Assembly: GCA_019359675.1 (NCBI GenBank)
Contig: JAHHGX010000065.1
Span: forward strand, 1 to 64,000
Source: Calothrix sp. FI2-JRJ7
Lineage (GTDB): Bacteria; Cyanobacteriota; Cyanobacteriia; Cyanobacteriales; Nostocaceae
Length of the DNA: 64,000 bases
Reading direction: 5' to 3'
The notes beneath the pieces are model-generated. The model was given only the letters and a program-made list of their open reading frames with translations. It made no database searches and was not told the DNA's origin. How positions within the stretch are numbered: position 1 is the stretch's first letter; every line of letters begins with the position of its first letter. A program made the position numbers and the translations under genes. This document shows, one piece after another, positions 1-64,000 of the stretch.

Positions 1-71
1 CAATTAATCGTTGTGCCGAATCTGGATTTTTCTCTATGTATCCTAGTATACTAGTCATATTTTAGCACTAA

Positions 72-869
72 AAAACTAATTTAATCTCTTTATACCACAA
101 TATATTTATATTTCGGAGATGTCTATTAGTTACAAGCGAATTAGCTAAATTATTCCCTGAACATATTCCCACTGTTCTCGCTATTGAAACTGAACGTCAC
201 TGGATGTTATTAGCAGACTTTGGAGAACCTGTTGGTAGAAAGGCGCCTGTAAAAATACAAAAAGACATTTATTCTTTACTTGCTCAAATCCAAATTAAAT
301 CAGTTCAGCATATAGATAAATTATTAAGTATAGGGTGTTTAGACAGACGTTTAGAATGGCTGGCAACTCAAATAGATATATTATTTAATGATGAAATTGC
401 TCTATCTCAAATGCAGCCAGATGAAATACAACAGTTACAAACCCTTGCTCCATCTCTTAAAGAACAATGCGCTCAACTAGCTAGCTATCAGATACCACAA
501 ACTTTAGTTCATGGTGATTTACATTTAGGTAATGTTGCTTTTCATAACAACAACTACATCTTGTTTGATTGGACTGATAGTTGTATTTCCCATCCTTTTT
601 TTGATATGTTTGAGTTCTTTTTTCCTCGTAAAAATCAACTGTCTTCATCTACTTTAATAGATTTACGAGATGAGTATTTAGCTCAATGGACAATTTATGA
701 ATCAAAATCACGTTTACTTGAAGCTTGGACATTCGCCGAACCTTTATGTGCTTTACATCATGCTGTAACGTATCAATATATTACTGCTTGTTTAGAGACT
801 AGAGCTAAACAAGAGTTAAGTAATGCTTTACCTGCTTTTTTGCGGGAACTTTTAAAATGTGCTAATTAA
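72..869 (+). pseudogene. Aminoglycoside phosphotransferase family protein, 5'-truncated
   Basis: This looks like the C-terminal two thirds of an APH/choline-kinase-fold phosphotransferase. The Brenner-type motif HGDLHLGN is followed by the metal-binding FDWTD, both characteristic of the family. The first ATG is at 204, but the same frame is open back to 72 and translates into family-like sequence just before that ATG (SELAKLFPEHIPTVLAIETE). The true N-terminal lobe with the ATP-binding glycine loop is missing, and an in-frame stop lies at 69-71. The gene therefore appears truncated or disrupted. A shorter protein starting at 204 could still be made but would lack part of the nucleotide-binding lobe. 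The substrate is unknown. A second, intact family member lies at 41352-42248. Confidence 0.7.
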
Positions 870-884
870 TTGGTGGTTGGTGAT

Positions 885-944
885 GGTGCGTAACTGCACT
901 TTAATTTTCGTTTTATTTGTGGTTCTTTTAAGCAGTTACGCACC
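885..944. repeat. Inverted repeat with GGTGCGTAAC termini
   Basis: Arms 885-897 and 932-944 are perfect 13-bp reverse complements around a 34-bp loop. The outer GGTGCGT resembles the arms at 25840-25898 and 37231-37289, so this is probably one member of a dispersed intergenic repeat family. It lies directly after the phosphotransferase remnant. Confidence 0.6.
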
Positions 945-998
945 CTACGTTTATATTGGGTTATGTTGGGTTGTGCCTACCCTACCCTACGGCAAAAC

Positions 999-1068
999 TA
1001 CCAGTAAAGGGAAAACTACGTTTACGTTAACGGGATATCCTACCAGTAAAGGGAAAACTCCGTTTACG
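999..1068. repeat. Tandem duplication, about 42-bp unit
   Basis: The 28-nt segment at 999-1026 is repeated at 1041-1068 with one difference, and the sequence between and after the copies is also similar. The block lies between the phosphotransferase remnant and the 3' end of ligA. An 80-codon open frame runs across it but has no recognisable coding features, so I treat the block as non-coding. Confidence 0.65.
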
Positions 1069-1109
1069 GATAACGGCATATTACGTAAACGCACTCGCTG
1101 ACACCCAAC

Positions 1110-3221
<2,112 letters not shown>

Positions 3222-3226
3222 TTATG

Positions 3227-4285
3227 TCACCGATGCCAGTCTTCTACTTCATAGAGAAATTTTGTACCACCGATTAACTTACGATTTGCAGAGGTACTTT
3301 GGACAAAAACCATGTACTTCTCCAAGTTGTTCGGTTTTATACGTGCCGTCTCACCTTCGGGTAAACCCAGCATTTCGCGTGCAGCTTGTCCTTCAAATAA
3401 GTCCCCTGTCCCTCTTTCCATCAAAACAATTTCTTTATATCCTTGGATAGTTTCTGTTTTCGTAAACTCGTAAAAACCACGTCCAACTTTGAAATTTAAA
3501 CCGTTTTCCAAAACAAACCCTTTAATCGAAGAATTATTGTCAATATCTAAAACCTGAAATCTACCTGGAGAAACCGCACGTAAATCAGCAGCTTGGAACA
3601 TCGTAGTTTCTTTACGATTCATCATCGAGTTAAAAATGCGATTCAAACCGCGATTCATTCGACCTTGTGCAACAACTTCTTGTTCGTATGCTTGCAGTTG
3701 TTCGTTTGAGGACTGCTGATAGCAAACTGCTAAAAATAAGTCAGTAATGTATGAAAATTGGTCAAGGTTAACGTGAAAACCACCCGATTGTTCGGCTAAT
3801 TCTCTATAAAATGGTGTTGCGTGACCACGATTTAGAGCTTGTACCCCATAAACCGTAATACCCTTGTCTGCTAATTTCGTGATTTCTTGGCGCCAATTTA
3901 ACTTTTGCGGGTTATGTGCAGGTGCATGAGGAATATCATCACCAATTAATACTAAAGACTTTGAAGCAGCTTCTGACCAAGTGAAAGATTGCGCTTCATG
4001 TAAAACTAATTCGTAACACTCAGGTGCATCACCACCACCCGTTGGTTCAACGTTTTGAACAAAATTACAAATTGCATCAATATCATTTGATAAATTAAAA
4101 TGCTTGGTAACATACGTCGAACCTGCATCACAATAGTCACCATGTGCAATAATACCAATCTTAATTAACGGAAGTTCATTCATTAACCGAGTCACGGTTT
4201 CTTTAATTCTTCGTCTAACTTGCGTTAAGCAAGGATACATGCTGCCCGTAGTATCAAAACTGAAAACAACTTCTATGCTGCTCAT
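3227..4285 (-). CDS. VWA-domain protein
   Basis: The N-terminal half is a von Willebrand factor A domain. The metal-dependent adhesion motif begins DTTGS at about residues 10-14, after the hydrophobic strand VVFSF, and the TGGGDAPE segment follows later. VWA domains bind ligand proteins through a divalent metal. In bacteria they are often stress-related or chaperone-like, but no partner is visible here. The C-terminal 130 residues match nothing I can name. There is no signal peptide or membrane segment, so a cytoplasmic location is expected. I place the start at the ATG of MSSIEVV (4283-4285), with GAGG upstream; an in-frame TTG two codons earlier is less likely. The gene follows ligA on the same strand, but the 29-bp gap alone does not prove co-transcription. 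Confidence 0.85.
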   Translation of the reverse strand: MSSIEVVFSFDTTGSMYPCLTQVRRRIKETVTRLMNELPLIKIGIIAHGDYCDAGSTYVTKHFNLSNDIDAICNFVQNVEPTGGGDAPECYELVLHEAQSFTWSEAASKSLVLIGDDIPHAPAHNPQKLNWRQEITKLADKGITVYGVQALNRGHATPFYRELAEQSGGFHVNLDQFSYITDLFLAVCYQQSSNEQLQAYEQEVVAQGRMNRGLNRIFNSMMNRKETTMFQAADLRAVSPGRFQVLDIDNNSSIKGFVLENGLNFKVGRGFYEFTKTETIQGYKEIVLMERGTGDLFEGQAAREMLGLPEGETARIKPNNLEKYMVFVQSTSANRKLIGGTKFLYEVEDWHR

Positions 4286-4339
4286 AACCAAAGCCTCGTT
4301 TTTGTGTCTATTTTAACTTTGTCAGTGATAAATTCTTAG

Positions 4340-4366
4340 CCCCCCGAATTCGCGGGGGGTTGGGGA
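4340..4366. repeat. GC-rich hairpin of the CCCCC/GGGGG family
   Basis: A run of six C, a short AT-rich centre and six G form a hairpin, followed by TTGGGG. The same design recurs at 27433-27515 and 43034-43138. It lies between the VWA gene and the 3' end of the histidine-kinase cluster. Confidence 0.55.
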
Positions 4367-4481
4367 ATTAATTCTTAAATATTATTGTGTATATTTACAA
4401 ATTCTGAAAGCATACTTTGGCGCCTTCCTAATTTATTAGTAATATTATACTATAGCGGTTAAAAAAAGCAAGGGTTAATTA

Positions 4482-5852
4482 TTACTTAGTATAAAAAGGA
4501 AGTTGAATAATAAACTCTGTACCTTTACCAGGTGAGGAAATACATTCAAGGGTGCCACCATGTTTTTCGGTAATGATTTGGTAGCTAATAGAAAGACCTA
4601 AGCCAGTACCTTTACCTTCGGGTTTTGTGGTATAAAAAGCTTGGAATATTTGGTCACGTACTGATAAATCCATACCTTTACCGTTGTCTCCAATTTGAAT
4701 TGTGACGTTTTCTTTATCAGTTGTGGTACATATACAAATTAAGGGAACTAACATTACATTGTCAGGAGTTAAATGTCTACCTTTATCACCCTCCCAGTCT
4801 CTATCTGGTACACTTTCGTCGATAGCATCGATAGCGTTAGCGATTAAATTCATAAACACTTGGTTAAGTTGTCCTGGGTAACATTCAATTAAAGGTAAAT
4901 TCCCGTATTCTTTAACAACGTGAATAGCTGGGCGCTTAGGTTGTGGTTTAAGACGGTGCTGAAGTATCATTAATGTGGTTTCAATACCTTCGTGGATGTC
5001 TACAGCTTTTTTCTCTTTCCCGTCTGCACGGGAGTAGGTACGCATTGACTGCATAATACTGCGAATTCTGTCACTTCCTAATTTCATTGATGAAATTAAT
5101 TTTGGTAAGTCTTCGGAAATATGGTCTAAATCTACTGACTCAATTATTTCTTCAATTTCATCACCTGGTTCAGGAAACTTTTCTCGATACAGTTTAAGTA
5201 AATTTATTAAGTCGTTTACGTATTGGTTAGCATGATATAAGTTAGTTGAAATAAAACCAATTGGGTTGTTGACTTCATGAGCAACCCCTGCAACCATTTG
5301 TCCTAATGAGGATATTTTCTCGGTTTGTACTAGTTGTAACTGGGTTTGTTGAAGTTCTTCTAGCGCTTCCGATAGTTCAGCAGTTCTTTCTGCTACTCGT
5401 TCCTCTAATTTCTGTTTTTGGTGGTCTAACTCTAAATTTAAACGTCGTAGCTTTAATTGTACATTAATACGTGCGATTACTTCTTCTTGCTGAAACGGTT
5501 TAGTTATATAGTCAACTGCTCCCATTTGAAAACCTTTGACTTTTTCTAATGTGTCAGATAAAGCTGTCATAAAGATGATAGGGATATCTTTGGTGATTGG
5601 GTTTGATTGCAGTTGGCAACAAGCTTCATAACCGTTTATTTTTGGCATCATAATATCGAGCAATATTAAATCTGGTGGATTATTTTGTGCCTGTTCAATA
5701 CCAGAATAACCATCCATTTCCACTAATACTTCATATCCAGCATCTGATAATGTTGTATATAAAACTTCTAAGTTGGTTGGACTATCGTCGATTACTAAGA
5801 TAGTTTCCACTGGTCTAATATTTTGACTTTGTTCTGAATTATGGTTTTCCAT
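4482..5852 (-). CDS. Response regulator-histidine kinase hybrid
   Basis: A soluble two-component protein of 456 residues. The N-terminal receiver spans about 17-135, with acidic residues IDD and phospho-acceptor D66 in LLDIMMP. A coiled coil follows (about 135-180), then a HisKA-type domain with H192 in VAHEVNNP and a HATPase domain (N box NLIANAIDAI, G boxes GDNGKGMD and GTGLGLSI). No membrane segment or sensory domain is present. It is therefore probably a relay kinase controlled by phosphorylation of its own receiver or by a partner. The large membrane kinase at 5906-8263 lies 53 bp upstream on the same strand, so the two are likely co-transcribed, with this kinase downstream in the relay. 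The signal and target genes cannot be inferred. Confidence 0.9.
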   Translation of the reverse strand: MENHNSEQSQNIRPVETILVIDDSPTNLEVLYTTLSDAGYEVLVEMDGYSGIEQAQNNPPDLILLDIMMPKINGYEACCQLQSNPITKDIPIIFMTALSDTLEKVKGFQMGAVDYITKPFQQEEVIARINVQLKLRRLNLELDHQKQKLEERVAERTAELSEALEELQQTQLQLVQTEKISSLGQMVAGVAHEVNNPIGFISTNLYHANQYVNDLINLLKLYREKFPEPGDEIEEIIESVDLDHISEDLPKLISSMKLGSDRIRSIMQSMRTYSRADGKEKKAVDIHEGIETTLMILQHRLKPQPKRPAIHVVKEYGNLPLIECYPGQLNQVFMNLIANAIDAIDESVPDRDWEGDKGRHLTPDNVMLVPLICICTTTDKENVTIQIGDNGKGMDLSVRDQIFQAFYTTKPEGKGTGLGLSISYQIITEKHGGTLECISSPGKGTEFIIQLPFYTK

Positions 5853-5905
5853 TGTTTTGATGTATCAATATTTTTTATATATATAATTTAATTTAACTCA
5901 GGTTT

Positions 5906-8263
5906 TTAGTTTCGTATGTATTCTTGTATGAAGTTTCTAATTTTTTGTATGTTAAGATTCTTCGCATACTTATTAAGTTGCCTTACAAAGATGTGATATT
6001 TCTCATCCATTATGGCGATTTTTTCCAATTCTTGTTTTATGCCTTTGATTTGTCCTTTACGAGCGTATTCAAGTAACAATGTTAAATCTGAAACTGGCGG
6101 TATTACCATTGCGCTGGTAAATACTGTTACAGCTTCACTTGATGATTCAACAGGAGGCGCCGCATAAGTCCAATTAATTTTAAGATGTTTGGTTAACATG
6201 TTATATAGTTCCTCTGGTTGTACTGGTCGAGTTAAAAACCCATCGGCGCCTGATAATAAAGTTTTTTGACGGTCAATTTCATACACATTCGGTGATGCAA
6301 TGATAATGACAGTATCTTGGAAAAGTTCAGATTGACGCATTTTAGCAAGCATTTCCCACCCGTTCATAATAGGCATAGTAACGTCAGAAATAATCATGTC
6401 AGGATGATATTGATTTGCTCTATCTATTCCCTCCTTACCATTACTAGCTTCGATAACTGCAAAACCAAGCGGTTCGAGTAAACTAATAAATAATGAGCGG
6501 TTTTCCCAAGAATCATCGACGATTAATATCTTTTTCTCTGGGCCTGAATAACCAATGATTTTACCTCGACTTGTGATAGTACTACTTTCGGTCCAGTCTT
6601 CAGCTAATCGGGATTCAAGCTCAAATTCAAATAAAGTCCCAACTCCCACTTGACTTTTGACTTGAATATTACTGCCCATCATTTCTACTATTTTCTGACT
6701 TATCGTCAACCCTAAACCATTCCCTTCGTTGGGTCTATCATTATTGACTACTTGCTCAAAAGGAGAAAATATCATTTTTATTTGATTAGTGTTCATTCCA
6801 ACACCCGTATCCACAACAGCAAAGTTAAGTTTTACATAATTAGGTTTACTCTCAGCAAATTTAACTTGTAGTTTTACACACCCTGTATCAGTAAATTTGA
6901 TAGCGTTAGTAAGTAAATTTATTAATACCTGTCGTAATCTTTTTTTGTCTATACTAATTCCTGCTGGTAAGTTAGGAGGTGAGTCATAAACAAAATCAAT
7001 ACCTTTTTGTTCAGCTTTAATTCGACAAATTTCTACAACTCCTTGAAGAAACGAAGGTAAATGAATATCTACAAATTGTAGCTCCATTTTGCGCGCTTCC
7101 ATTTTAGATAAATCTAATATGTCATTGATTAAATTCAGCAAATGAAATCCACATTCATATATAGTTTTAATTCCATGTTTTTGTTCTTCTGTTAAGTTTT
7201 GAGAATTTGCTAAAATTTGGGCATAACCAAGAATACCATTGAGTGGTGTTCTTAATTCATGACTCATCGAAGCCAAAAATTTACTTTTAGCTTGGTTTGC
7301 TCCATCTAAACTTGCTTGTGCCTTTTTTTGTTCTTCGACAAGTGTTTGAAGTTGATTTAGCAGGTTGTTGATACAATTAGCAAGTTGTGATGTATCATTA
7401 TCTTGATTAACAGAAATTTTGCAGTCAAAATTAGATTTAGTTTTTGCTTGACTACTCGCTTGTTTAGTAATTTTAATAATGTCTGTGATTGGACTTGCAA
7501 TTTCATGACTTAGATAGCGTATAAATAAATATGACAGCACAATTGTGATATTAATACCAATAATAATTATGATTATCCGGATTAATTGCGCGCGACTTAA
7601 GTCATCTTCAGCTATTTCTTCTTGTTTCTCCGTTATTTCAATGACATTTCCTAGTTGATGTATAAATTCTTGTGTTTTTTCTGTATCATTACTGCTATAT
7701 AAATTAGCAAATGACTCTTTAACTCGAAACATCTGTCTTTCTAGTAATCGATTTTCAGTTCGATTCAAAAGAGTCTCTAACTCTTGAAGATATTCTAAGT
7801 AATTTTCTTTATATTTTGCAAACAAATGTTCAAGAATTTGATTTGATGATTTCTGAGATTTCTGATTTAATTTTGTAAATAATTGTTTACTTTGTGTAAC
7901 TCGCGTCAGTGCTGTTGCCTTTGCCTGTTGAAAACTTTTCGGTTTTTGAAGTGAGGATGGAAAACTTGTTATAGTTAATAAGCTTAGTGTATCCGCGCGC
8001 AAATCACCTAACAGTTTACGCTCACGTCGTACTCGAATACGATATTCATTCGCTTGTGCTTGAAAATAATCAGCAATTATAATAGGTAATAAACCACCAA
8101 ACATTACTATTAATAATGCAATAATATACCCAAACAAAATTTTTCTTTGAATGGTCAAGTGATTATTATGATTCACAAATTTTAATAGCCATTGGAGTAT
8201 CATAACTCCTGGCTTTTGTAATTTAGAAGTTTGATTTGAGTTTTCATCCTTATGGTGGTTCAT
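5906..8263 (-). CDS. Membrane-bound hybrid histidine kinase
   Basis: About 785 residues. Two transmembrane segments (about 42-66 and 228-250) flank a predicted helical extracytoplasmic region of 160 residues, followed by a HAMP-like linker. The HisKA domain has its histidine in MSHELRTPLNG (near residue 335). The ATPase domain (N box LLTNAIKFTDTG, GNGLGLTI) and a receiver (ILIVDDSWENRS, phospho-acceptor in ISDVTMP) follow. The last 90 residues have no recognised domain; an Hpt role is possible but no clear Hpt motif is seen. I choose the ATG at 8261-8263 (MNHHKDENSN) over an in-frame TTG four codons upstream. It is first in an apparent operon with the kinase at 4482-5852. The ligand is unknown. 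Confidence 0.9.
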   Translation of the reverse strand: MNHHKDENSNQTSKLQKPGVMILQWLLKFVNHNNHLTIQRKILFGYIIALLIVMFGGLLPIIIADYFQAQANEYRIRVRRERKLLGDLRADTLSLLTITSFPSSLQKPKSFQQAKATALTRVTQSKQLFTKLNQKSQKSSNQILEHLFAKYKENYLEYLQELETLLNRTENRLLERQMFRVKESFANLYSSNDTEKTQEFIHQLGNVIEITEKQEEIAEDDLSRAQLIRIIIIIIGINITIVLSYLFIRYLSHEIASPITDIIKITKQASSQAKTKSNFDCKISVNQDNDTSQLANCINNLLNQLQTLVEEQKKAQASLDGANQAKSKFLASMSHELRTPLNGILGYAQILANSQNLTEEQKHGIKTIYECGFHLLNLINDILDLSKMEARKMELQFVDIHLPSFLQGVVEICRIKAEQKGIDFVYDSPPNLPAGISIDKKRLRQVLINLLTNAIKFTDTGCVKLQVKFAESKPNYVKLNFAVVDTGVGMNTNQIKMIFSPFEQVVNNDRPNEGNGLGLTISQKIVEMMGSNIQVKSQVGVGTLFEFELESRLAEDWTESSTITSRGKIIGYSGPEKKILIVDDSWENRSLFISLLEPLGFAVIEASNGKEGIDRANQYHPDMIISDVTMPIMNGWEMLAKMRQSELFQDTVIIIASPNVYEIDRQKTLLSGADGFLTRPVQPEELYNMLTKHLKINWTYAAPPVESSSEAVTVFTSAMVIPPVSDLTLLLEYARKGQIKGIKQELEKIAIMDEKYHIFVRQLNKYAKNLNIQKIRNFIQEYIRN

Positions 8264-8500
8264 GAGTGGCAACAATTTAACTAAGTAATATAGCGTAGTC
8301 AGATGTAACGCATAAATTAATTATTAAGTAATAAAACGGTTGGCGATTTGCATAAAGAGTTTCTGTATAAGAATCATCTTTACGCGCTAAGTGGTATAAG
8401 ATTTGCATCCCCTAGTTAATGGTTCCCAAATTTACAGCAATAATTCACACTGTGGTAACTTTGTTGCCAAATGGTATTATTATTGTGAGGGGGACATTAA

Positions 8501-9754
8501 GTGATGACTAGTTATGATTTGCTGCTGCGTCAAGCTAAACTAGTAACGGCGCCGGATAGTTCAAGTGTTGATATTGGTATACTAGACGGAAAGATTGTAA
8601 AGATTGCATCTGCTATTAGTGGGGATGCGTCGATGGAACTTAATATAGACGGTAAGTTGGTTTCGCCACCTTTTGTTGAGTCACATATTCATTTAGATTC
8701 GGCGTTAACCGCTGGTACACCTCGCTGGAACCAAAGCGGTACACTATTTGAAGGTATTCAAATTTGGAGTGAGCGCAAACAAAATTTGTCGCTAGAAGAT
8801 ATTAAAGCACGTGCGATCGAGACTCTCAAGCAACAAGCTGAATATGGAATTTTGTTTGTGCGGACACATGCTGATGTTAGTGAACCTTCTTTGATTGCAC
8901 TACAAGGTTTACTCGAAGCGCGCGATACTGTCAAAGATTGGATAACAGTCCAAGTCGTAGCGTTTCCTCAAGATGGTATTTATTCTCATCCTCAAAATGA
9001 AGCGCTACTGGAAAAAGCTTTACAAATGGGCGCCGATGTAGTAGGAGGAATACCGCATTATGAACTTACTCGTGATTGGGGTGTAAAATCAGTCGAGCGA
9101 ATCTTTGAATTAGCAGAACAATACGACCGTTTAATAGATATTCATTGTGACGAAGTAGACGACGAACAGTCACGGTTTCTTGAAGTAGTAGCAGCTTGTG
9201 CCGCACGTACAGGAACCGGAAAGCGTGTTACAGCAAGTCATACAACTGCTTTTGGCTCATATAATAACGCCTACGCATTTAAATTAATGGGGTTTTTGCA
9301 ACGCGCACAAATCAACTTTATTGCAAATCCACTCATCAACATTACTTTACAAGGACGTGCTGATACATATCCTAAACGTCGGGGTGTTACGCGCGTTAAA
9401 GAACTTTGGCAAAACGGCTTAAATGTCAGCTTTGGACACGACTGTATCCAAGACCCTTGGTATAGCTTAGGTACAGGTAATATGCTCGATGTTGCCCATA
9501 TGGGTGTTCACGTATGTCAAATGACCGGAATACCTGAAATTAACGCTTGTTATGAAATGGTGACAACAAACGGCGCCAAAACATTGCACGTCGAAGATAT
9601 ATATGGTGTAGAAGTTGGCAAACCCGCATCGCTAATTGTACTAGATACCGATAGCTATTATGATGCAGTCAGGCGCCGGAGCAAACCACGCTATGTTATT
9701 TCTCAAGGAAAATTACTTAATCAAACGGCGCCTGAAACCACTCAATGGCTATAA
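8501..9754 (+). CDS. codA: Cytosine deaminase
   Basis: An amidohydrolase-superfamily enzyme that deaminates cytosine to uracil for pyrimidine salvage. Residues match the E. coli CodA active site: H62 and H64 (HIHLD), H215 and E218 (HCDEVDDEQSRF), H247 (ASHTT) and D314 (GHDCIQDPW). The substrate segment WNQSGTLFEGI and the NPLIN...LQGR...YPKRRG region are also CodA-like. At 417 residues the length is normal. The start is either GTG 8501 or ATG 8504; a strong GAGGGGG ribosome site lies just upstream. No cytosine permease (codB) neighbour is present, and the next element is a transposase remnant only 14 bp past the stop. Confidence 0.9.
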   Translation: MMTSYDLLLRQAKLVTAPDSSSVDIGILDGKIVKIASAISGDASMELNIDGKLVSPPFVESHIHLDSALTAGTPRWNQSGTLFEGIQIWSERKQNLSLEDIKARAIETLKQQAEYGILFVRTHADVSEPSLIALQGLLEARDTVKDWITVQVVAFPQDGIYSHPQNEALLEKALQMGADVVGGIPHYELTRDWGVKSVERIFELAEQYDRLIDIHCDEVDDEQSRFLEVVAACAARTGTGKRVTASHTTAFGSYNNAYAFKLMGFLQRAQINFIANPLINITLQGRADTYPKRRGVTRVKELWQNGLNVSFGHDCIQDPWYSLGTGNMLDVAHMGVHVCQMTGIPEINACYEMVTTNGAKTLHVEDIYGVEVGKPASLIVLDTDSYYDAVRRRSKPRYVISQGKLLNQTAPETTQWL

Positions 9755-9768
9755 CATTCCAAAATTAA

Positions 9769-54624: not shown

Positions 54625-55162
54625 GGTGCTTATACCCCTGATTTTTGAAAATGATTATTAAAGTTTTTTATTCAGTTCACATATAACAGTATTTATGACT
54701 ATAATCAACCTCATACAGCAAGTATGAGGTTGATTATTACTCTAACTCTGTGTCCTTCGTGTCTCTGTGGTAAAAAAATAACCCACTGCACAGGCGAGAC
54801 GCCTATGCTACAAGAGCTGTAATTAATGACAAGATACTACAGGACGTGCGGATGGTGTTGTGACTCGAACAAGTTTTTGGACACTTTGGAACAAGAAATT
54901 GGACAACTCGATGTTCTTTGTGTCTTTGCGGTTTATTTCTTGGAGGAACCATATAATCCGGAGGATTTCCCGCTTCATTAGACACAAAAGGCACAAATGG
55001 AGGAGGATTCTTTCTGACTCGATAGCTTCTAAACACCTATTATAGAGAAGAGTATTCAGAGAAAATACTTAATTAATAATTTTTTTGGGATACAAAGTTT
55101 AATCTCACCTCATGTTGGGGAAATATAAGTAGGTGACGAGTTTAGAGTATTGAGGTTAAACG
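54625..55162. other. Intergenic region with hairpin and repeat remnants
   Basis: A perfect 14-bp stem (54703-54716 with 54722-54735, loop AGCAA), a CTCTGTG...GTCTCTGTGGTAAAAA repeat (54741-54778) and a third haemagglutinin tail copy (54836-54864, minus strand VTTPSARPVV). A 77-codon frame across 54803-55036 is probably spurious. The promoter of the giant kinase should lie near 55080-55160. Confidence 0.5.
54703..54735. repeat. Perfect 14-bp hairpin
   Basis: AATCAACCTCATAC and GTATGAGGTTGATT pair around AGCAA. No clear T tract on either side, so it is more likely a repeat or regulatory hairpin than a terminator. Confidence 0.6.
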
Positions 55163-58100
55163 ATGCTATCTGCTTTGAAGGTTCCTGGCTACCTAATAAC
55201 CGAACTAATTCATGATGGTTTAAACACAATAGTGTATCGGGGAGTATCGCAATCAAATTCAGAAAAAGTAATCCTGAAAGTGTTGAAAGGTGAGTATCCT
55301 TCTTTAGAAGAGATTAGTCGCTTGAAGCATGAATACAGCATTACCCAAAACCTTGATATCGAAGGAATTGTTAAAGTTGTACGTTTAGAAGCTCAAGTAT
55401 GTCACTATATATTAGTGTTAGAAGATTTTGGTGGTATTAGTCTTCAAAACTTTCTTGCTAGCGAACGGTTATCTCTCGTCTCTTTTCTCTGCATCGCTAT
55501 ACAACTCTCAAAGTCCTTGATATCACTACATACTCACCATATAATCCATAAAGATGTTAAACCTTCAAATATCATTATTAACCCAGAAAGCGGTATTGTT
55601 AAACTCACCGACTTTAGCATCGCTTCACGTCTAAGTCAAGAAGCACAGTTAATCAGTTTGAGTAAGTTGGAGGGAACATTAGCGTATATTTCCCCTGAGC
55701 AAACGGGACGAATGAACCGCGCGGTAGATTATCGTAGTGATTTTTACTCTTTAGGTGTTACATTCTATGAAATGTTGACGGGACAGTTGCCATTTCAGAG
55801 CGATGATGCTTTGGAAATAGTGCATTGCCATATTGCCAAACAACCACCATCTATTTTAGATTTTAATCCAAATGTACCCTTGGTGATAGCTGCAATTATA
55901 ACTAAGCTAATGGCAAAAAATGCGGAAGACCGTTATCAAAGTGCAGCAGGGTTGTTAGCTGATTTGCAGCGTTGTTTGGATGAGTTGAAGGATAGAGGTA
56001 AAATTACTGAGTTTCTGCCAGGGGAGAGTGACCGTATTTCTCAATTGAATATTCCTCAAAAGCTTTATGGAAGGGGAAGAGAAGTTGAAACACTACTAGC
56101 TGGGTTTGATGCGATTAGTCAAGGGGAAAGTCAACTAATGCTAGTTGCTGGGTACTCTGGAATTGGTAAATCTTCGTTAGTAAATGAAGTTCACAAGCCA
56201 ATTGTGCGGCAACGCGGGTATTTCATCAGTGGAAAATTTGACCAGTTTCAGCGCGCTGTCCCTTATGCATCGTTAATTCAGGCATTTCAGTCTTTGATGC
56301 GGCAGTTATTAGTCGAAAATGCCACACAGCTAAAATCGTGGAAAGAAAAATTAAGCAGAGCGTTGGGTAATAACGGACAGGTGATTATTGATGTGATTCC
56401 AGAATTGGAATTGATTATAGGAGTCCAACCACCTGTTGTTGAGTTAGGTGCAATGGAGAGACAAAACCGTTTTAATCAAGTATTCTGTACATTTGTTGGT
56501 GTTTTTACGCAAAAAGAACATCCTCTAGTTATCTTTTTAGATGATTTGCAATGGGCAGATATTGCTTCACTCAAGTTAATGCAGCGATTAATCACTGATA
56601 ATAATAGTCAGTATTTATTGTTAATTGCCGCTTATCGCGATAACGAAGTTAGTCCAACACATCCGTTCATCCAGACCGTAGAAGAAATTCAAAAAACAGA
56701 CACAACAATTAATCGAATAACTTTAGAAAATTTAAATATTTCTCAAGTACAGCAATTAGTAAATGATACCTTTAATATTACTGATAATTCTATTACTCAA
56801 GGTTTAGCATCTTTACTATTTAATAAAACATTAGGTAATCCTTTCTTTCTAACGCAGCTAATAAAAACAATTTATCAAGAGAAATTAATCAAATATGATT
56901 TTGATTTAAAATGCTGGGATTGGAATCTTCAGCAAATTCAAAGTGTCGGCATCACCAACTTGAGTATAGTAGAATTAATGGCAAGCAATATCAGTAAATT
57001 GCCTGCTGCTACTCAGTCAGCATTGCAATTAGCTGCTTGTATTGGCGCTTTCTTTAAATTAGATGTTTTAGCAACAGTAACCGAAAAATCTGCATCCGAT
57101 ATCATCAAATCACTGTGGCCTGCATTGCAACAAGGATTAATATTACCATTAAGTCATAATTATCAGGTGCCAACTGAACAGTTACTATTAATTTGTGACG
57201 AGTCAGTGCAAAAACTCGATTGTGGCGAGATAGAATTAGAATTTAAGTTTTTACATGACCGAGTTCAACAAGCTGCTTATTCTCTGATTCCAGAGGAGGG
57301 AAAACAAACTATACATTTAAGAATTGGTAAGCTTTTACTTGGTTATTTTTCTTCATCAGAACTAGAAGCTCACATTTTAGATATTGTTAATCATTTTAAT
57401 ATGGGAGCAAACTTACTCTCATCACAAGTAGAAAAAGAAGAACTTGCCTTCCTTAATTTATTAGCTAGTCGTAAAGCCAAAACAGCTAATGCTTATCATT
57501 CATCTGCTGAGTATTTAAATACAGGAATACAATTGCTGCCAGATAACAGTTGGCAAAGTAACTATGATTTGACGCTAAATCTATATGTGGAATTAATCGA
57601 GGCTGAGTACTTAAATACTAATTTTGACCGTTTGCAGCAGCTATGCGAAATCGTCTTAATTCATGCGAACAATATCTTAGATACAATTAAAGTATATGAA
57701 GTAAAAATTCAGTCTTGTAATTCCCAACTTCGACCAGAATTAGCAATTGAAATTGGTCTTGATGTACTGAATAAGCTGGGAGTAACACTTGCTCTCACAT
57801 TACCCAAAAATATTGATGTTGAGCAATTGGAAAATCTGCCGCAAATTCAAGACGCATATCAAATAGCAGTCTTAAAAATACTTAATAATTTAACTTATTC
57901 TACTTATCAAACAGCCCCCGATTTATATCTAAAACTTATATATACAATGGCGGATATTTGTATCCACTATGGTAATTCTGAAACTGCGGCTTTTGCCTAT
58001 GCTTGTTGTAGTTTAGTTTGCGAAGTTCAAGGCGAGGTTGACTTGGGGTATCAGTATGGTTTATTATCGCTCTTAATATTGGATAAATTTAATGCGATAA

Positions 58101-60475
58101 CTTTTGCTCCCAAGGTTTTAACGACTTATAACGTCTGTGTTCGTCATTGGAAAGAGCATGGTAAATTCACCCTTAATGCATTTTCAGAAGCTTTTAATCT
58201 AGGTGTGGAGGCAGGAGATATTGAATATGCGTGTTTTGCCAGTATCTACTTTTGCCTTTACAGCTTTTTAACTGGTGAAGCACTTCCAGTCGTAGATGAA
58301 AAATATAGAAAGTATCTTGATTATGTGAAATCTGTCAAACAGGAGTTCTCCACTCATTGCTTTGAGATATGGCACCAGCTAGCTTTGAACTTACAAGTTT
58401 TTAGTCAAAATAGTTATCGTTTAATCGGCGATAGTTTTAATGAAGATGAACTATTGCCAATATTGATTGAGAAAAATCAACTTCATTTATTGTTTGGGGT
58501 TTATTTTTCTAAGTTAATGCTAGCTTATCTATTTCAAAAATATGAGCAAGCGATTCAGTATTCACGTTTGGCAGAAAAATATGCGGTGGGCGCCAGCGCG
58601 ACAATGATGATTGTACACCATAACTTTTACTATTCGTTAGCACTACTTAAACATTATCCTAACGTTTCTGTCGAAGAACAAGAAGAATATTTAGCTACTG
58701 TTATAGCTAACCAAAGCCAGATGAAAATATGGAGTTTTCATTGTGCTGCAAACAACCAGCATAAATATGACCTTGTAGAAGCCGAAAAATGCCGTATATT
58801 AAGTCAATATTGGGAGGCAACACAGCTATACAATCGCGCGATAGAACTAGCATCTGAAAATGGATATATACAAGAACAAGCGATAGCTTCGGAGCTAGCA
58901 GGTGAGTTTTATTTAGCATCAGGTAATATGAAAATCGCCTCATTGTATCTTACTGATGCTTATTATGGATATCAGCAATGGGGAGCAACAGCCAAAGTTA
59001 AAGATTTAGAATCCCGCTATCCTTACCTTACCCTTCGTAAGAGGGAATCAATGTCTCCAACCACTACTACTACAACTACTACTCAAACTACTAACAATTA
59101 TTCATCGCTTGATTCGGCAACTATAATTAAAGCATCCCGTACTCTCTCTAGCGAAATAGTTATTAGCAATTTACTAACTAAACTCATGCATTTATTACGA
59201 GAAAATGCAGGTGGCCAAAAAGTATGCTTTATTTCTAAACAAGACAAACAGTTATTTTTAGAAGCAGTTCTTGGAGAAGATAACGAGGTAAAGGTCTTAC
59301 AATCAATACCGATCAGTGAATGTAATATTTTACCGTTATCATTAATTAATTATTTACAACATACTCTCACACCTTTAGTATTAGACAATGCCACTCAATC
59401 AGATTTTAGTACAGATAGTTATATAGAAGCAAATCAAGTATTATCTGTATTAGTATTTCCAGTTATTCATCAAAGCAAGCTCCAAGGCATTTTATATTTA
59501 GAAAACAATCTTACTAAAGCCGCATTCACACAAGATAGAATTGAACTGCTAAGTGTTATTACAGCACAAGCAGCTATATCTATAGAAAACGCGCGCTTTT
59601 ATACAACTCTAGAAAACCGTGTTGCCGAACGCACACAAGAACTTGCAGAAAGAAATCAAGAACTGCAAGCAACATTAGAAAAATTACATCAAACTCAAAT
59701 CAAGCTCATTCAAACTGAGAAAATGTCGAGTTTAGGGCAGTTAGTTGCAGGTGTTGCTCACGAAATAAATAATCCAATCAATTTTATCTATGGTAATTTA
59801 ACTCATACTCATCAATACACTCAATCACTGTTTGAATTAATTAAACTGTATCAAAAAAACTATCCCAAACCTGTTGCTGAAATTTGTGATACTATTGAAG
59901 AAATTGATTTAGATTTTATTCAAGATGATTTGCCCCAAATTTTATCTTCGATGAAGAACGGCGCCGGACGGATAAAAAATATAGTATTATCATTAAGAAA
60001 CTTCGCACGTCTTGACGAAGCAGATAGAAAAACAGTTAACATCCACGAAGGGCTAGATAATACCTTAATGATTCTACATCAAAAATTAGAAGCAATTCAA
60101 TTAATCAAAGAATATGCAAATCTACCAGAAGTATATTGCTTTGCAGGAGAATTGAACCAGGTATTTATGCATCTATTGAACAATGCAATTGATGCAGTAG
60201 CAAGCACAACAATAAATACTCCGACAATTTGGATACGTACTGGTGTCAGAGAAAATAATCAAATTGCAATTAGTATTATAGATAATGGCGCCGGAATCAA
60301 ACCAGAGATACAATCAAAAATATTCGACCCATTCTTTACTACTAAACCTGTTGGTCATGGAACTGGTTTAGGGTTATCGATAAGTCATCAAATAGTACAA
60401 CAGCACAAAGGACAGTTGCTTTGTTCATCTGAGTTAGGTGTTGGTACAGAGTTTACAATATTACTACCGTATTGA
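55163..60475 (+). CDS. Ser/Thr kinase - AAA-type ATPase - GAF - histidine kinase fusion
   Basis: 1770 residues. An N-terminal eukaryotic-type kinase (about 8-275; HKDVKPSNIIIN catalytic loop, KLTDFSIA, GTLAYISPEQTGRMN) is followed by an AAA/ORC-type ATPase (Walker A GYSGIGKSS near 330, Walker B VIFLDDLQWAD). A long helical region (about 700-1290), a GAF domain (about 1325-1475), a coiled coil, and a HisKA/HATPase module (H near 1531 in VAHEINNP; DNGAGI; GTGLGLSI) complete it. This is the HstK-type family known in heterocystous cyanobacteria. It should be cytoplasmic. Ribosome site GAGG 8 nt before ATG. Signal and partners unknown; no receiver is attached. Confidence 0.92.
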   Translation: MLSALKVPGYLITELIHDGLNTIVYRGVSQSNSEKVILKVLKGEYPSLEEISRLKHEYSITQNLDIEGIVKVVRLEAQVCHYILVLEDFGGISLQNFLASERLSLVSFLCIAIQLSKSLISLHTHHIIHKDVKPSNIIINPESGIVKLTDFSIASRLSQEAQLISLSKLEGTLAYISPEQTGRMNRAVDYRSDFYSLGVTFYEMLTGQLPFQSDDALEIVHCHIAKQPPSILDFNPNVPLVIAAIITKLMAKNAEDRYQSAAGLLADLQRCLDELKDRGKITEFLPGESDRISQLNIPQKLYGRGREVETLLAGFDAISQGESQLMLVAGYSGIGKSSLVNEVHKPIVRQRGYFISGKFDQFQRAVPYASLIQAFQSLMRQLLVENATQLKSWKEKLSRALGNNGQVIIDVIPELELIIGVQPPVVELGAMERQNRFNQVFCTFVGVFTQKEHPLVIFLDDLQWADIASLKLMQRLITDNNSQYLLLIAAYRDNEVSPTHPFIQTVEEIQKTDTTINRITLENLNISQVQQLVNDTFNITDNSITQGLASLLFNKTLGNPFFLTQLIKTIYQEKLIKYDFDLKCWDWNLQQIQSVGITNLSIVELMASNISKLPAATQSALQLAACIGAFFKLDVLATVTEKSASDIIKSLWPALQQGLILPLSHNYQVPTEQLLLICDESVQKLDCGEIELEFKFLHDRVQQAAYSLIPEEGKQTIHLRIGKLLLGYFSSSELEAHILDIVNHFNMGANLLSSQVEKEELAFLNLLASRKAKTANAYHSSAEYLNTGIQLLPDNSWQSNYDLTLNLYVELIEAEYLNTNFDRLQQLCEIVLIHANNILDTIKVYEVKIQSCNSQLRPELAIEIGLDVLNKLGVTLALTLPKNIDVEQLENLPQIQDAYQIAVLKILNNLTYSTYQTAPDLYLKLIYTMADICIHYGNSETAAFAYACCSLVCEVQGEVDLGYQYGLLSLLILDKFNAITFAPKVLTTYNVCVRHWKEHGKFTLNAFSEAFNLGVEAGDIEYACFASIYFCLYSFLTGEALPVVDEKYRKYLDYVKSVKQEFSTHCFEIWHQLALNLQVFSQNSYRLIGDSFNEDELLPILIEKNQLHLLFGVYFSKLMLAYLFQKYEQAIQYSRLAEKYAVGASATMMIVHHNFYYSLALLKHYPNVSVEEQEEYLATVIANQSQMKIWSFHCAANNQHKYDLVEAEKCRILSQYWEATQLYNRAIELASENGYIQEQAIASELAGEFYLASGNMKIASLYLTDAYYGYQQWGATAKVKDLESRYPYLTLRKRESMSPTTTTTTTTQTTNNYSSLDSATIIKASRTLSSEIVISNLLTKLMHLLRENAGGQKVCFISKQDKQLFLEAVLGEDNEVKVLQSIPISECNILPLSLINYLQHTLTPLVLDNATQSDFSTDSYIEANQVLSVLVFPVIHQSKLQGILYLENNLTKAAFTQDRIELLSVITAQAAISIENARFYTTLENRVAERTQELAERNQELQATLEKLHQTQIKLIQTEKMSSLGQLVAGVAHEINNPINFIYGNLTHTHQYTQSLFELIKLYQKNYPKPVAEICDTIEEIDLDFIQDDLPQILSSMKNGAGRIKNIVLSLRNFARLDEADRKTVNIHEGLDNTLMILHQKLEAIQLIKEYANLPEVYCFAGELNQVFMHLLNNAIDAVASTTINTPTIWIRTGVRENNQIAISIIDNGAGIKPEIQSKIFDPFFTTKPVGHGTGLGLSISHQIVQQHKGQLLCSSELGVGTEFTILLPY

Positions 60476-60611
60476 TAAAAATTTAAACGATTGAAGTTCA
60501 TTGTAGGCAAGTATTGACACTAGGTTGATTTCTTGTACCTTTAGGTTGATGCTTTTATTAAGAAATGTATTCAATCTTGAAGTTAATTTATCATTTAGGT
60601 ACAGGAAATTA

Positions 60612-61805
60612 ATGGCGCCCGCTAAACGCTTACTAAAAAATCAGGGTTGGATAGGTATTGCGCTGTCTTTCTATGCTTTTATAGCTATTGGCATTGCTGA
60701 AGGAGGGTTAGGTGTTCTTATTCCTTCTATTCAAGCAACGTATAATCTAAGTGCTGCTACTATTACGTTACTTTTCATTAGTCAAGTTACAGGTTATGTC
60801 ATAGCTGCTTTTTCTAGTAGTCTACTAAGTAGTCGTATTGGACTCGCGCGCATGTTATTGTTAGCATCTACAATTTTGACCAGCGCACTGATTATTTATG
60901 CACTTTCACCATATTGGTTAGTAATGGTTGCTGCTGGTACATTACTTGGATTAGGAATTGGAATAATTGATGCTGGCATTAATACTTATATAGCACAACA
61001 AGACAATGCTGATTTAATGGGGATTCTTCATGCTTTTTACGGTGTGGGAGCATTACTTGGTCCTGCGGTGGCAACTAGTTTACTGGCGATAAATTTAAAC
61101 TGGCGCTCCTGTTATTTAGTTATTGCCCTTGTAGTAAGTGTAACAATATTTGGAATGCTTTGGGCAGTAGTAAATAACTATAAACCTTTAAATAAAAAAG
61201 CCGAAGCATCAAACACTAATGGTAGACAAAATTTAACTGTAGCCTTAAAAACACCAAAAGTCTTGATAGCAGGGTTATTACTATTTGTATATGTAGGTGT
61301 AGAAGCATCAATAGGTAACTGGGCTTTTAGTGTTCAAAGTAAAGTTAGAAATACACCAGTGACTCTTGCTGGTTACAGTGTTAGCGCTTATTGGTTTGGG
61401 CTAACTGTAGGAAGACTATTAACAGGACGTGCAGTAAAATATCTCGGCGCCACACGCGCGCTTGATATGTCTTTAATATTATTAGTAATCAGCGTAGTTG
61501 CTTGGTGGTTGTTGCCCCAGCAATTAATAAGCTTACCGTTAATGGGTTTATCTCTAGCTGCAATTTTCCCAATGATAATATGGCTAATGCCAATCTTAGT
61601 ATCACCGCAAACAGTACCCGCAGCTATTGGGTTTATCACAAGTGCCGCTTCGTTAGGCGCCGCAGGTATTCCAACTATGTTAGGATGGTTTGCCGCACGC
61701 TTCGGGTTGGGCATTATTCCTGCATTACTCTTACCCCTAGCAATTGTAATGTTAATTTTACATCGCTTATTAAATACCCATACCGCAACTAAACCAAATC
61801 CCTAA
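60612..61805 (+). CDS. MFS transporter
   Basis: About 397 residues and twelve transmembrane segments, with a loop containing NYKPLNKKAEASNTNGRQNL between helices 6 and 7. The fold is major facilitator, resembling sugar or drug transporters; the TM2-3 loop reads SSRIGLARM. The substrate is unknown. I choose ATG 60612 (MAPAKRLLKNQGW), with AGGAAA 5 nt upstream; the frame extends to a TTG at 60525. The end overlaps the convergent DinB gene by 17 bp. Confidence 0.88.
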   Translation: MAPAKRLLKNQGWIGIALSFYAFIAIGIAEGGLGVLIPSIQATYNLSAATITLLFISQVTGYVIAAFSSSLLSSRIGLARMLLLASTILTSALIIYALSPYWLVMVAAGTLLGLGIGIIDAGINTYIAQQDNADLMGILHAFYGVGALLGPAVATSLLAINLNWRSCYLVIALVVSVTIFGMLWAVVNNYKPLNKKAEASNTNGRQNLTVALKTPKVLIAGLLLFVYVGVEASIGNWAFSVQSKVRNTPVTLAGYSVSAYWFGLTVGRLLTGRAVKYLGATRALDMSLILLVISVVAWWLLPQQLISLPLMGLSLAAIFPMIIWLMPILVSPQTVPAAIGFITSAASLGAAGIPTMLGWFAARFGLGIIPALLLPLAIVMLILHRLLNTHTATKPNP

Positions 61806-62349
61806 CAACATTATACATATAAATAAAATCCGTCATCCCATAATCATAACCAAGCTGGTGCAGCAAAGTAGTAACCTGCGCGCGGTGATGTGTTTGATGA
61901 TTAAAAAAATGAGCAAGCGCAAACCAAAGTGAATGTTCTCGTTCAACAGTCTTAGATACATTATGATATTGCATCGACGCTGATAATATCTCATCACTTA
62001 GTTCGCTAACCCAACTTTCAATAACATTATCAGTTTGCGCGCGTTCGTTACAAAGTTCCGTAAAATCACTATATAGTTCTTTCCCCAAAGACTCAACGTC
62101 AAAAATTAGCTTTGCATCTTGTAGAGATTTAAACTGATGACAAGTACTAGTCGCAAACCTTCCTAACCAAGTTCTGTCAGCTAAAAGAGTATGATTCAAT
62201 GTACCATGAATCGAATCAAAAAAAGCTCCAAGATTGCGGCGCCGTTCTTCCGGAGTTAGTGATGCCACAAGTTCGTAAATTTGATTATTGACCCACGTAT
62301 TATATTGTGCCATCAAGCGAAACTGTTTAATATGAGTAGATTCTGCCAT
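61789..62349 (-). CDS. DinB family metal-binding protein
   Basis: 186 residues forming a four-helix DinB/YfiT-like bundle. The metal-binding histidines are in GTLNHTLLADRTWLGRF and HFFNHQTHHRAQVTTLLHQL, the usual three-His arrangement. DinB-like proteins are thought to be thiol S-transferases using low-molecular-weight thiols. AGGTGAG precedes the ATG. The tail overlaps the MFS gene end. Confidence 0.9.
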   Translation of the reverse strand: MAESTHIKQFRLMAQYNTWVNNQIYELVASLTPEERRRNLGAFFDSIHGTLNHTLLADRTWLGRFATSTCHQFKSLQDAKLIFDVESLGKELYSDFTELCNERAQTDNVIESWVSELSDEILSASMQYHNVSKTVEREHSLWFALAHFFNHQTHHRAQVTTLLHQLGYDYGMTDFIYMYNVVRDLV

Positions 62350-62767
62350 AACTCACCTATCTTCATCTAATTAAGATAAATACATCTCTTGTGGAATGGG
62401 CATCCCTGCCCGTTCCATCTTATAAAATACTAATAAAAATAATTATCTTACCACAGAGACATAGACTATAAAAATCCCCTTGAAACACCTTAAGTAGTTG
62501 TTTGTTCTTCCAAAGTCAAAGTTGTAATGGCTGCATTTACAAAATTAATTTAGTTAATCAGCTGTGTAACAGTTGAATATTATCTTTGAAAAAGCAAGAA
62601 ATGCTCAATATCTAGCACCAAAACAACTGTCTGCTAATTGCTCCGTTGCTGTTAGCACAGTCAAACCTATAATATTCACATCCTAGTAAAAGCACGCGGT
62701 GTACATAAATATTGTAATATAGTCTCCTGTTGAAGTTACAATAGAGTTGTAGTTAGGTAAGCTCTCG
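62350..62767. other. Intergenic region
   Basis: 418 bp, no gene. It contains the GGAATGGGCA...TGCCCGTTCC hairpin (62393-62416) and a piece of the CCACAGAGAC dispersed repeat (62451-62467). The remainder is AT-rich and should include the xisH promoter. Confidence 0.55.
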
Positions 62768-63183
62768 ATGGCAGCTAGAGATCTTTTCCATGAGGCTGTA
62801 AAAGCAGCTCTTCAAAAAGAGCAATGGATTATTACAGGCGACCCCTTGAAATTAGATGTAGGTGGCACTAAGCTAGAAATTGACCTTGGGGCTGAACGTT
62901 TATTAGCAGCCGAACGTCAAGGTGAGAAAATCGCGGTTGAAATAAAATCTTTCCTGGGTGACTCACCTTTAACTGACTATCACGCAGCGCTAGGACAATT
63001 CTTGAACATGGACTCGCCTTAGAAATTCATGAGCCTGACCGCATTCTCTATCTAGCTATTCCTCTAACTGTATATGATGCTTTTTTCCAACGTGAATTTG
63101 CCCAACTATCAGTGGAACGTTATCAAATAAAACGTATTGTCTATGACCCAATTAATGAGGTGATTACTCAATGGATAAATTAG
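62768..63183 (+). pseudogene. xisH: XisH-like fdxN-element excision controlling factor, frameshifted
   Basis: MAARDLFHEAVKAALQKEQW, DLGAERLLAAERQGEKIAVE and IKSFLGDSPLTDYHAALGQF are classic XisH, including the E...E-x-K nuclease-like core. The frame ends early at 63020-63022. In another frame HGLALEIHEPDRILYLAIP, FFQREFAQLSVERYQIKRIV and EVITQW continue to the expected XisH end (63183), overlapping the xisI start. A small deletion near 63010 breaks the gene, unless it is a sequencing error. Confidence 0.85.
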
Positions 63184-63506
63184 AGCGATATCGAGCAATG
63201 GTTCAAAAAGTTTTGACAGAATATGCTTCTGTTCCTGTTGCGTCGGGCGAAATTGATTCTCAACTTATCTTTGACAAAGAACGTGACCGTTATCAAGTTG
63301 TAAGCGTTGGTTGGGTAGGACACCGCCGCGTACATGGCTGTGTTTTACATCTGGACATTATCAATGAAAAAATTTGGATACAGCAGAATACTACCGAACT
63401 ACAAATCGGTCAAGAATTAGTTGCTACTGGAATTCCTAGGGAAGACATTATACTTGGTTTCCAAGCTCCCTATATGCGGCAATACACTGATTTTGGTGTT
63501 GCATAA
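63171..63506 (+). CDS. xisI: XisI-like fdxN-element excision controlling factor
   Basis: 111 residues with the full XisI pattern (MDKLERYRAMVQKVLTEYAS, DRYQVVSVGWVGHRRVHGCV, IWIQQNTTELQIGQELVATG, GFQAPYMRQYTDFGVA). In Anabaena, XisH and XisI are needed with the XisF recombinase for fdxN-element excision, but many stand-alone pairs exist and their general role is unclear. The start overlaps the xisH stop region, so the two are translationally coupled. No recombinase is nearby. Confidence 0.92.
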   Translation: MDKLERYRAMVQKVLTEYASVPVASGEIDSQLIFDKERDRYQVVSVGWVGHRRVHGCVLHLDIINEKIWIQQNTTELQIGQELVATGIPREDIILGFQAPYMRQYTDFGVA

Positions 63507-63588
63507 TAATTAGTATAAATTTTTAGCTTCCCGCGTGGAAGCTGCTGTGTACACACAAGTTTTGTAACGTCGTTTTGTATGATTTTGA

Positions 63589-64000
63589 TCAATTTTCAAT
63601 TTTAACTTGCCAAGTTTGTAAAGTTGTACCAAGAAACAGGTCTAAATTAGTTAAAGCGTTAAGGTATTGAATTGTAGCATCAAGTTCTGCATTTCTTGCT
63701 TGAGCGAGTTCGTTTTGCAATCTAATCAACTGAAAAACTGCATTCCCTCTACCTAGTTTTAATTTTTCCTGTTCAATTTCGAGTTGCTGTTGCGATAATT
63801 GAGTTGCTCGTCTAGCAAGCTCTAGTTGATTATAGCTTAAATTGGTGTTTCGCACTCGGTCTTGTAACTCAATATCTAGTTTTGTTTGTACATTTTTTAA
63901 TGTGTTTTCTGACTTCCGTAACTCAACTTGCGCGCGCTTAAATGCTTGTTCTAAATTTAAATCTCCAAAGGTATGACCAAAAGTTAAACCTAATCTTGCA
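63589..64000 (-). CDS. TolC-family outer-membrane efflux protein (partial)
   Basis: The frame is open to the window edge, so only the C-terminal 136 residues are seen. They contain LNLEQAFKRAQVELRKSENT and the helical LELARRATQLSQQQLEIEQE, LGRGNAVFQLIRLQNELAQA and LNALTNLDLFLGTTLQTW, the coiled alpha-barrel repeat and typical end of TolC/OEP proteins. The rest of the gene lies beyond the window. It could form the exit duct for an RND or type I system. Confidence 0.85.
   Translation of the reverse strand, partial: ARLGLTFGHTFGDLNLEQAFKRAQVELRKSENTLKNVQTKLDIELQDRVRNTNLSYNQLELARRATQLSQQQLEIEQEKLKLGRGNAVFQLIRLQNELAQARNAELDATIQYLNALTNLDLFLGTTLQTWQVKIEN

Follow-up and report, generated by a model that had tools for sequence, protein, structure and literature searches.

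GGCGCC as the highly iterated palindrome of a whole Calothrix genus: probable link to cytosine methylases and slow erosion of its sites

The cyanobacterial highly iterated palindrome (HIP) HIP1, GCGATCGC, is a GC-rich word that recurs every 0.5-1 kb or so, both within genes and between them, and it is tied to solitary methylases. The purpose of HIP sequences has yet to be settled; Xu, Lawrence and Durand (2018) reportedly argued for selection on HIP1. Here we analyzed GGCGCC in the first 64 kb (64,000 nucleotides, the whole stretch examined, hereafter the window) of contig C65 (JAHHGX010000065.1) of Calothrix sp. FI2-JRJ7 (genome G000, 8.66 Mb). GGCGCC shares with HIP1 its GC-rich palindromic form, its density, its presence in genes and gaps and the tie to solitary methylases, but it is a different word with a different methylase, and HIP1 itself stands at chance level in G000.

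The sections of Elhai 2015 (PMC4390886) on exceptional HIPs name GGCGCC as the alternate HIP in Calothrix PCC 7103 and in 19 kb from Calothrix D253, where HIP1 and GATC are strongly reduced and two GRCGYC methylases are present. The same sections view exceptional HIPs as sporadic rather than clade-wise, term the relation of HIPs to their methylases a mystery, give the base methylated by GRCGYC enzymes as unknown, and propose a mismatch-repair ratchet directed by GmeC. In the BsaHI part of Neely and Roberts 2008 (PMC2413257), M.BsaHI is reported to methylate the inner C of GRCGYC; the R.BsaHI motifs and the spacing of R and G/A before TL used below come from the same source. A full-text literature search returned no report of GGCGCC as a Calothrix HIP besides Elhai 2015; most subscription journals were outside its coverage, and later work may exist. 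GGCGCC as an alternate HIP of Calothrix has been known since 2015, and our genome belongs to a Calothrix genus; the initial annotation of the window, which had proposed a new palindrome, was right about a genome-wide iterated word but not about its novelty.

As far as those sections describe PCC 7103 and D253, the present case resembles them in the word, in a density of the order of 1,000-2,000 per Mb, in the reduction of HIP1 and GATC, and in the GRCGYC-family methylases. It differs in that Elhai had one genome and 19 kb, whereas here all seven genomes of a genus carry the word, and in that the methylated base of the family is now known from the other paper and site turnover has been measured. 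Another alternate HIP in the same source, RCCGGY of Oscillatoria PCC 10802, likewise is a GC-rich word that replaces HIP1 and is tied to a 5-methylcytosine (m5C) methylase, but the word differs from GGCGCC. The BsaHI/HgiDI restriction-modification family (GRCGYC) is similar in its methylase family, its recognition-domain spacing and the R.BsaHI-type neighbors found in other genomes; the Calothrix genus differs from it in lacking a detected RE_HindVP nuclease and in the huge enrichment of one GRCGYC word. New here are the genus-wide spread, the methylase without a detected partner nuclease in all seven genomes, a second lineage (G059), the site turnover rates and the origins of the sites in ligA.

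We counted 116 GGCGCC sites in the window, compared with 3.16 predicted from base composition, close to the roughly 110 against three to four that the initial annotation had given. In 100 dinucleotide-preserving shuffles the count was 5.35 ± 2.75 (maximum 13) and never reached 116, and GGCGCC was the top-ranked hexamer by count in this 38% GC window. The sites and the six examples singled out earlier were as follows; all six examples are real, each having been placed one or two bases off.

242..62243, window-wide: 116 GGCGCC sites, the first at 242-247 and the last at 62238-62243 (counts and 100 shuffles)
2670..2675, no strand assigned: GGCGCC site inside ligA, previously placed at 2672
8548..8553, no strand assigned: GGCGCC site, previously placed at 8549
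27702..27707, no strand assigned: GGCGCC site, previously placed at 27701
29700..29705, no strand assigned: GGCGCC site, previously placed at 29699
35271..35276, no strand assigned: GGCGCC site, previously placed at 35269
60287..60292, no strand assigned: GGCGCC site, previously placed at 60286

Genome-wide, G000 carries 14,889 GGCGCC against 8 copies of the mirror word CCGCGG (1.72/kb), and 464 kb of the genome held 839 copies against 42 expected (order-1 Markov). Other all-GC palindromes were scarce in the same 464 kb (CCGCGG 0, CCCGGG 2, GCCGGC 10). Called genes contain 96 of the window sites, and 20 lie elsewhere; across 304 kb of this contig, with simple open reading frame (ORF) calls, density was 2.08/kb in genes and 1.02/kb outside, and the 470 coding sites were divided 265/82/123 among the frames, which agrees with the earlier claim of sites in genes, gaps and all frames. 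The flanking base over 464 kb was A in.315, T in.333, C in.251 and G in.100 of cases; the suggestion that no flank is preferred held for A, T and C, but G was disfavored (.100 compared with.189 before other GG). Spacing was near random over the 464 kb (mean 551 bp, coefficient of variation 0.98), with 46 gaps below 50 bp (72.6 expected) and 119 above 1 kb (136 expected). Among other palindromes, GGCC (106 versus 854 expected), CTGCAG (5 versus 84) and TGGCCA (12 versus 89) were avoided in the 464 kb.

HIP1, which the initial annotation had not seen, was absent from the window and occurred 31 times in G000 compared with 51 copies of its mirror word. GATC, rightly reported as avoided, appeared 12 times in the window against about 160 expected, and 112 times in 464 kb against 1,064 expected. 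An extreme genome-wide excess, low HIP1, and a GC-rich word at 1,000-2,000 per Mb are three marks of an alternate HIP, and GGCGCC in G000 has all of them; the genome-wide counts show neither GGCGCC near expectation nor abundant HIP1 elsewhere.

The same state was found in all seven genomes of the genus when related strains were checked for the switch. GGCGCC copies numbered 14,889 in G000, 19,393 in G388, 17,704 in G389, 15,449 in G379, 18,131 in G390, 7,475 in G391 and 20,380 in G392 (1.15-1.72/kb, mirror word 1-8), and HIP1 was low throughout (31-163 copies, 3.6-22.6/Mb). HIP1 was at least 203 per Mb, and GGCGCC at most 108 per Mb, in the 69 remaining family members sampled. In a survey of 388 genomes of the order, drawn evenly from a larger group, GGCGCC exceeded 1.5/kb in three: G000, its congener G379, and G059 from another family. 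The switch to GGCGCC is common to a whole genus, which speaks against the sporadic, non-clade view of exceptional HIPs in the sections of Elhai 2015 cited above. Within G389, one segment (G389:C7:654281-661928) has 8 HIP1 copies in less than 8 kb, the rest of that genome being nearly without HIP1, and is probably DNA recently gained from a HIP1-bearing cyanobacterium.

Other genomes of the survey also stood out. G136 (872 GGCGCC, mirror word 9, HIP1 81, methylase present) was considered as a further GGCGCC case and dropped because its own iterated word is RCCGGY: GCCGGT (136), ACCGGC (132) and GCCGGC (78) lead in the 74 kb of its loci L103-L106, HIP1 is lost (81), and it is of the type given for Oscillatoria PCC 10802 in those sections. 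Five genomes of family f9, G170, G008, G037, G060 and G193, had GGCGCC and mirror counts of 3,403/13 and 2,493/38 in the first two and about 1,050/10-21 in the others; they have no L010-type methylase match (see below), their HIP1 is still high (maximum 15,293 in 6.4 Mb, G170), and they form an unexplained intermediate. In G159 (f14, g45), HIP1 numbered 59 against about 2,000 in its congeners G013, G172 and G195, with 542 GGCGCC against 4 mirror words and no L010-type match; another early or failed switch is possible there. G303 is HIP1-rich (6,611) and has an L010-type methylase, no RE_HindVP match and 277 GGCGCC against 14 mirror words, perhaps the effect of an orphan methylase while HIP1 persists.

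Among the m5C methylase genes of G000, five are full-length and three are fragments. Two of the former are short, L009 (305 amino acids) and L010 (313-317 amino acids), with 60% mutual identity. These methylases match Pfam PF00145, receive no specific name from NCBIfam, and have M.HaeIII and M.HhaI as their nearest solved structures. L010-type genes were present in all seven genomes of the genus, 81-98% identical to L010; G379 has two copies, one of 97/93% identity that is broken across contig ends and an intact one of 82-83%. The M.BsaHI spacing (R eleven and G/A nine residues before TL) was found in both proteins, with R and G in L010 and R and A before PSPTI in L009. At 20 of 28 L010-type loci from outside genomes, R.BsaHI motifs were found in a nearby ORF, 19 with the full published motif (L068 had the loose PERR part only, and at L049, L055, L058 and L067 the motif-bearing frame was short or split), and one such partner ORF was RE_HindVP (E = 1e-156). 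These neighbors and the recognition-domain spacing are the grounds on which L009 and L010 were assigned to GRCGYC, as putative M.BsaHI-type methylases with a specificity predicted from their family. They are thus candidates for the enzyme acting on the iterated word that the genome of an alternate HIP is expected to carry. The initial annotation had proposed a solitary GGCGCC methylase; solitary methylases of the GRCGYC family are present, but with GRCGYC as the family target a strict GGCGCC specificity was not supported.

Within the genus, none of the 10 L010-type loci, which come from all seven genomes, has an R.BsaHI motif within 1.5 kb. In the collection of named genomes, the motif was present at 57 of 77 other loci and at 0 of 3 Calothrix loci. 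A search for RE_HindVP at E ≤ 0.001 returned nothing in all seven genomes or in G059, while the same search recovered it intact in the positive controls G181 and G220.

To follow the turnover of the sites, we aligned 304 kb of the G000 contig with the syntenic regions of G392 and G388 (207,428 columns common to all three, roughly 6% divergence, tree close to a star); G389 and G390, with about 33 kb aligned each, were left out of the rate estimates. Among hexamers with at least 100 occurrences, GGCGCC ranked first in conservation out of 1,007 against G392 (420 of 471 kept; all hexamers 0.708) and first out of 910 against G388 (380 of 432 kept; all hexamers 0.720). CGCGCG, which is also elevated in the 464 kb of G000 (195 versus 43 expected), had no special conservation. 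Relative to a majority ancestor (444 sites, 1,332 site-branches), GGCGCC underwent 130 losses and 38 gains, with a net loss in all three lineages (losses 48, 40 and 42; gains 9, 17 and 12, respectively), and when, more strictly, the two other genomes had to agree across the whole hexamer, losses numbered 104 and gains 18. There were 55 sites confined to a single genome and 104 shared by two of the three (P = 0.0001); by our reasoning, a steady state would need at least as many of the former as of the latter.

The substitutions were unevenly distributed over the six bases. Inner C to T accounted for 93 of the 164 site substitutions, 1.45 times the 64.2 that the trinucleotide background predicts, whereas all others numbered 71 compared with 179.9 expected (0.39). 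Where the sites fall on four-fold silent positions, their bases 1, 2, 5 and 6 had 26 changes against 119.5 (0.22; 95% 0.14-0.32), and bases 3 and 4 had 59 against 83.5 (0.71; 0.54-0.91), with ratios of 1.09 and 1.07 for the control words GCGCGC and CGCGCG. The flanks were unprotected, with rates of 0.019-0.037 at 11 offsets of 1-30 bases beyond the site (background 0.028). One-off ancestors gave rise to GGCGCC in 21 gains (4.3 expected), and a further 17 gains need at least two changes; the commonest was GGCACC to GGCGCC (11 versus 1.8 expected), about three of which, at a guess, may be parallel losses. Protection everywhere save at the base that M.BsaHI would methylate is the pattern expected of m5C deamination, and suggests that GGCGCC sites are guarded base by base and slowly erode at the probably methylated letter.

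On balance, we consider it probable that GGCGCC is a methylation-linked palindrome, held by a weak site-by-site bias and now slowly decaying. We infer an order of events in which the methylase would have a causal role in the cell: in the ancestor of the genus, HIP1 may have disappeared while cytosine methylases of the GRCGYC (M.BsaHI) type were kept without their nuclease; ordinary point mutations in one-off and two-off words would then have created GGCGCC sites genome-wide; a weak bias would favor each intact palindrome over its broken forms; and the inner C of the sites, probably methylated, would now erode them by deamination. Both the slower loss and the more frequent gain of sites agree with such a weak bias on individual palindromes, whose scaled strength, by our arithmetic from the silent-site ratios and the standard fixation formula, would be about 2-3. 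Sites are in greater excess than the present bias seems capable of maintaining, and the drive may once have been stronger. Both weak selection for GG(m5C)GCC and methylation-directed biased repair fit, the former being more likely because protection ends at the edge of the six bases, there is no dependence on neighbor distance and spacing is near random.

Several observations weigh against this account. The GRCGYC specificity of L009 and L010 rests on family membership. An L010-type match occurred in 111 of the 388 genomes, few of which are GGCGCC-rich, so a methylase alone is insufficient for a GGCGCC HIP; outside the genus and G059, the top carrier, G136, had only 0.13 GGCGCC/kb. G340 has an L010-type gene, no HIP1 and just 9 GGCGCC, which may be explained by a broken nuclease remnant with a stop that adjoins its methylase gene. 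In the family, with our own genus left out, 30 carriers (three by partial hits) had a median of 0.85 GGCGCC per Mb compared with 4.5 in 39 non-carriers (P = 0.008), CCGCGG being lower too (P = 0.014) and the ratio differing at P = 0.045; at the 77 named-genome loci, GGCGCC numbered 85 versus 297 expected, and the control word CCGCGG 99 versus 269. Such depletion in HIP1-bearing carriers would support the specificity, but it was not clearly beyond that of the control word. HIP1 was 3-4 times its mirror word in G389 (163/58) and G391 (147/37), partly clustered, so it is not at zero in every congener. The evolution rates come from one genomic region, three genomes and simple ORF calls. The all-substitution ratio of GGCGCC (0.65) was unexceptional beside those of AAGCTT (0.68), GTTGGC (0.66) and CGCCGC (0.59), so that the strong signal lies in the substitution spectrum, and one word in the silent test, ATCGCC, reached 0.45 (3 changes versus 6.6, a small sample).

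Considerably less likely is Elhai's full ratchet, in which GmeC-directed mismatch repair retains GmeC-creating mutations and GGCGCC accumulates unselected until, at roughly one site per kb, no base is far from a GmeC and the process stops. The GRCGYC-family methylase in all seven genomes, the raised one-off gains, a density of the right order and the methylation of the inner C by M.BsaHI, which makes GmeC (PMC2413257, in the part cited), all agree with it. The near-random spacing, with nearly as many gaps above 1 kb as expected, does not, nor does the excess of losses over gains; in addition, gains did not fall preferentially in gaps (P = 0.41) and losses were independent of the nearest neighbor (P = 0.25).

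It is unlikely that GGCGCC is selected as the site of some DNA-organizing or repair protein, with methylation incidental. Protection confined to the six bases at silent positions, with free flanks, would suit such a protein, but the inner C, which binding would need, is the least protected base; no such protein is known here, though none was sought; and G059, the second lineage with a GGCGCC-centered palindrome, also has the methylase family. Vsr short-patch repair provides the analogy for a further account, in which a similar activity turns GGTGCC/GGCACC back into GGCGCC and drives accumulation. The commonest gain, GGCACC to GGCGCC, is what this predicts, but the inner C to T change should then be the best repaired and is instead the commonest loss, so that we regard this driver as very improbable; the one-off word was also not depleted in the window (16 versus 9.3 and 18.7 expected under two models).

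The notion that GGCGCC fills the HIP1 niche position by position was checked in the following gene, NAD-dependent DNA ligase by Pfam, in six of the seven genomes of the genus and in its HIP1-bearing relatives, 28 of 77 searched genomes outside the genus.

1110..3197, minus strand: ligA, with 6 GGCGCC sites

The ligA genes of the 28 relatives held 58 HIP1 and no GGCGCC. HIP1 columns and GGCGCC columns coincided in 2 of 464 cases, compared with 8.0 expected by column share, and in a codon-shift test the fraction at or above the observed value was 0.199. At the GGCGCC columns the relatives mostly had hexamers one to three changes off; one site read AGCACC in 27 of 28 relatives and GGCGCC in all six congeners. 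Because the two sets of columns do not coincide, the ligA sites appear to have arisen by point changes at new places, and filling of the niche position by position was not borne out. Conversion of HIP1 in place, for example GGCGATCGCC minus GATC giving GGCGCC, has letters that fit and a strongly avoided GATC on its side, but this route, GATC excision included, was unsupported in ligA (one gene, low power), and we give it hardly any credence. An ordinary bias in codons or base composition (Gly-Ala written GGC GCC, a general preference for GC) is just as implausible: the GGC GCC frame does hold 265 of the 470 coding sites, but 205 lie in the other frames, the word persists outside genes, other all-GC palindromes are rare and the order-1 Markov expectation is far below the count.

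G059 points to a second origin. This genome has 9,489 GGCGCC in 3.8 Mb at 53% GC (mirror word 2,450), and its HIP1 count is 74 against 174 mirror words. In 148.6 kb its leading palindrome was CGGCGCCG (159 versus 6.6 expected), with GGCGCC at 331 versus 83.5. It has an L010-type orphan methylase (54% identity), whereas no L010-type match was found in its four sampled congeners, three of which have 3,110-3,424 HIP1 and the fourth, G007, 134. Judged from gene content and word counts, G059 would be an independent swap to a GGCGCC-centered palindrome with a methylase of the same family. We tentatively propose that HIP function lies in a plentiful G(m5C) mark rather than in the word: after loss of HIP1, a solitary G(m5C) methylase could give rise to a replacement, whose new sites could be protected by selection on the mark, so that Calothrix GGCGCC and G059 CGGCGCCG would be two independent re-inventions, with inner-C erosion as the price of the mark.

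A genus with seven swapped genomes and an independent swap provide natural replicates for the question of what HIPs are for, and the measured rates (0.22 at four silent positions, unprotected flanks, inner C fastest) make the choice between selection and repair quantitative. The genus-wide GGCGCC also corrects the view, expressed in the cited sections of Elhai 2015, that alternate HIPs do not form clades.

In G007, 20 kb (locus L112) was led by GGCC-based palindromes (TGGCCA 25 versus 9.3 expected, AGGCCT 22 versus 7.9), perhaps yet another alternate HIP in the genus of G059, as seen in those 20 kb. No match was found when 5.5 kb of the window was searched against plasmids. A repeat of about 350 bp at window positions 30772-31121 has at least 15 further copies in G389 (86-93% identity) and is probably a small mobile element, and a dispersed repeat of about 95 bp at 31325-31419 has copies in all seven genomes of the genus.

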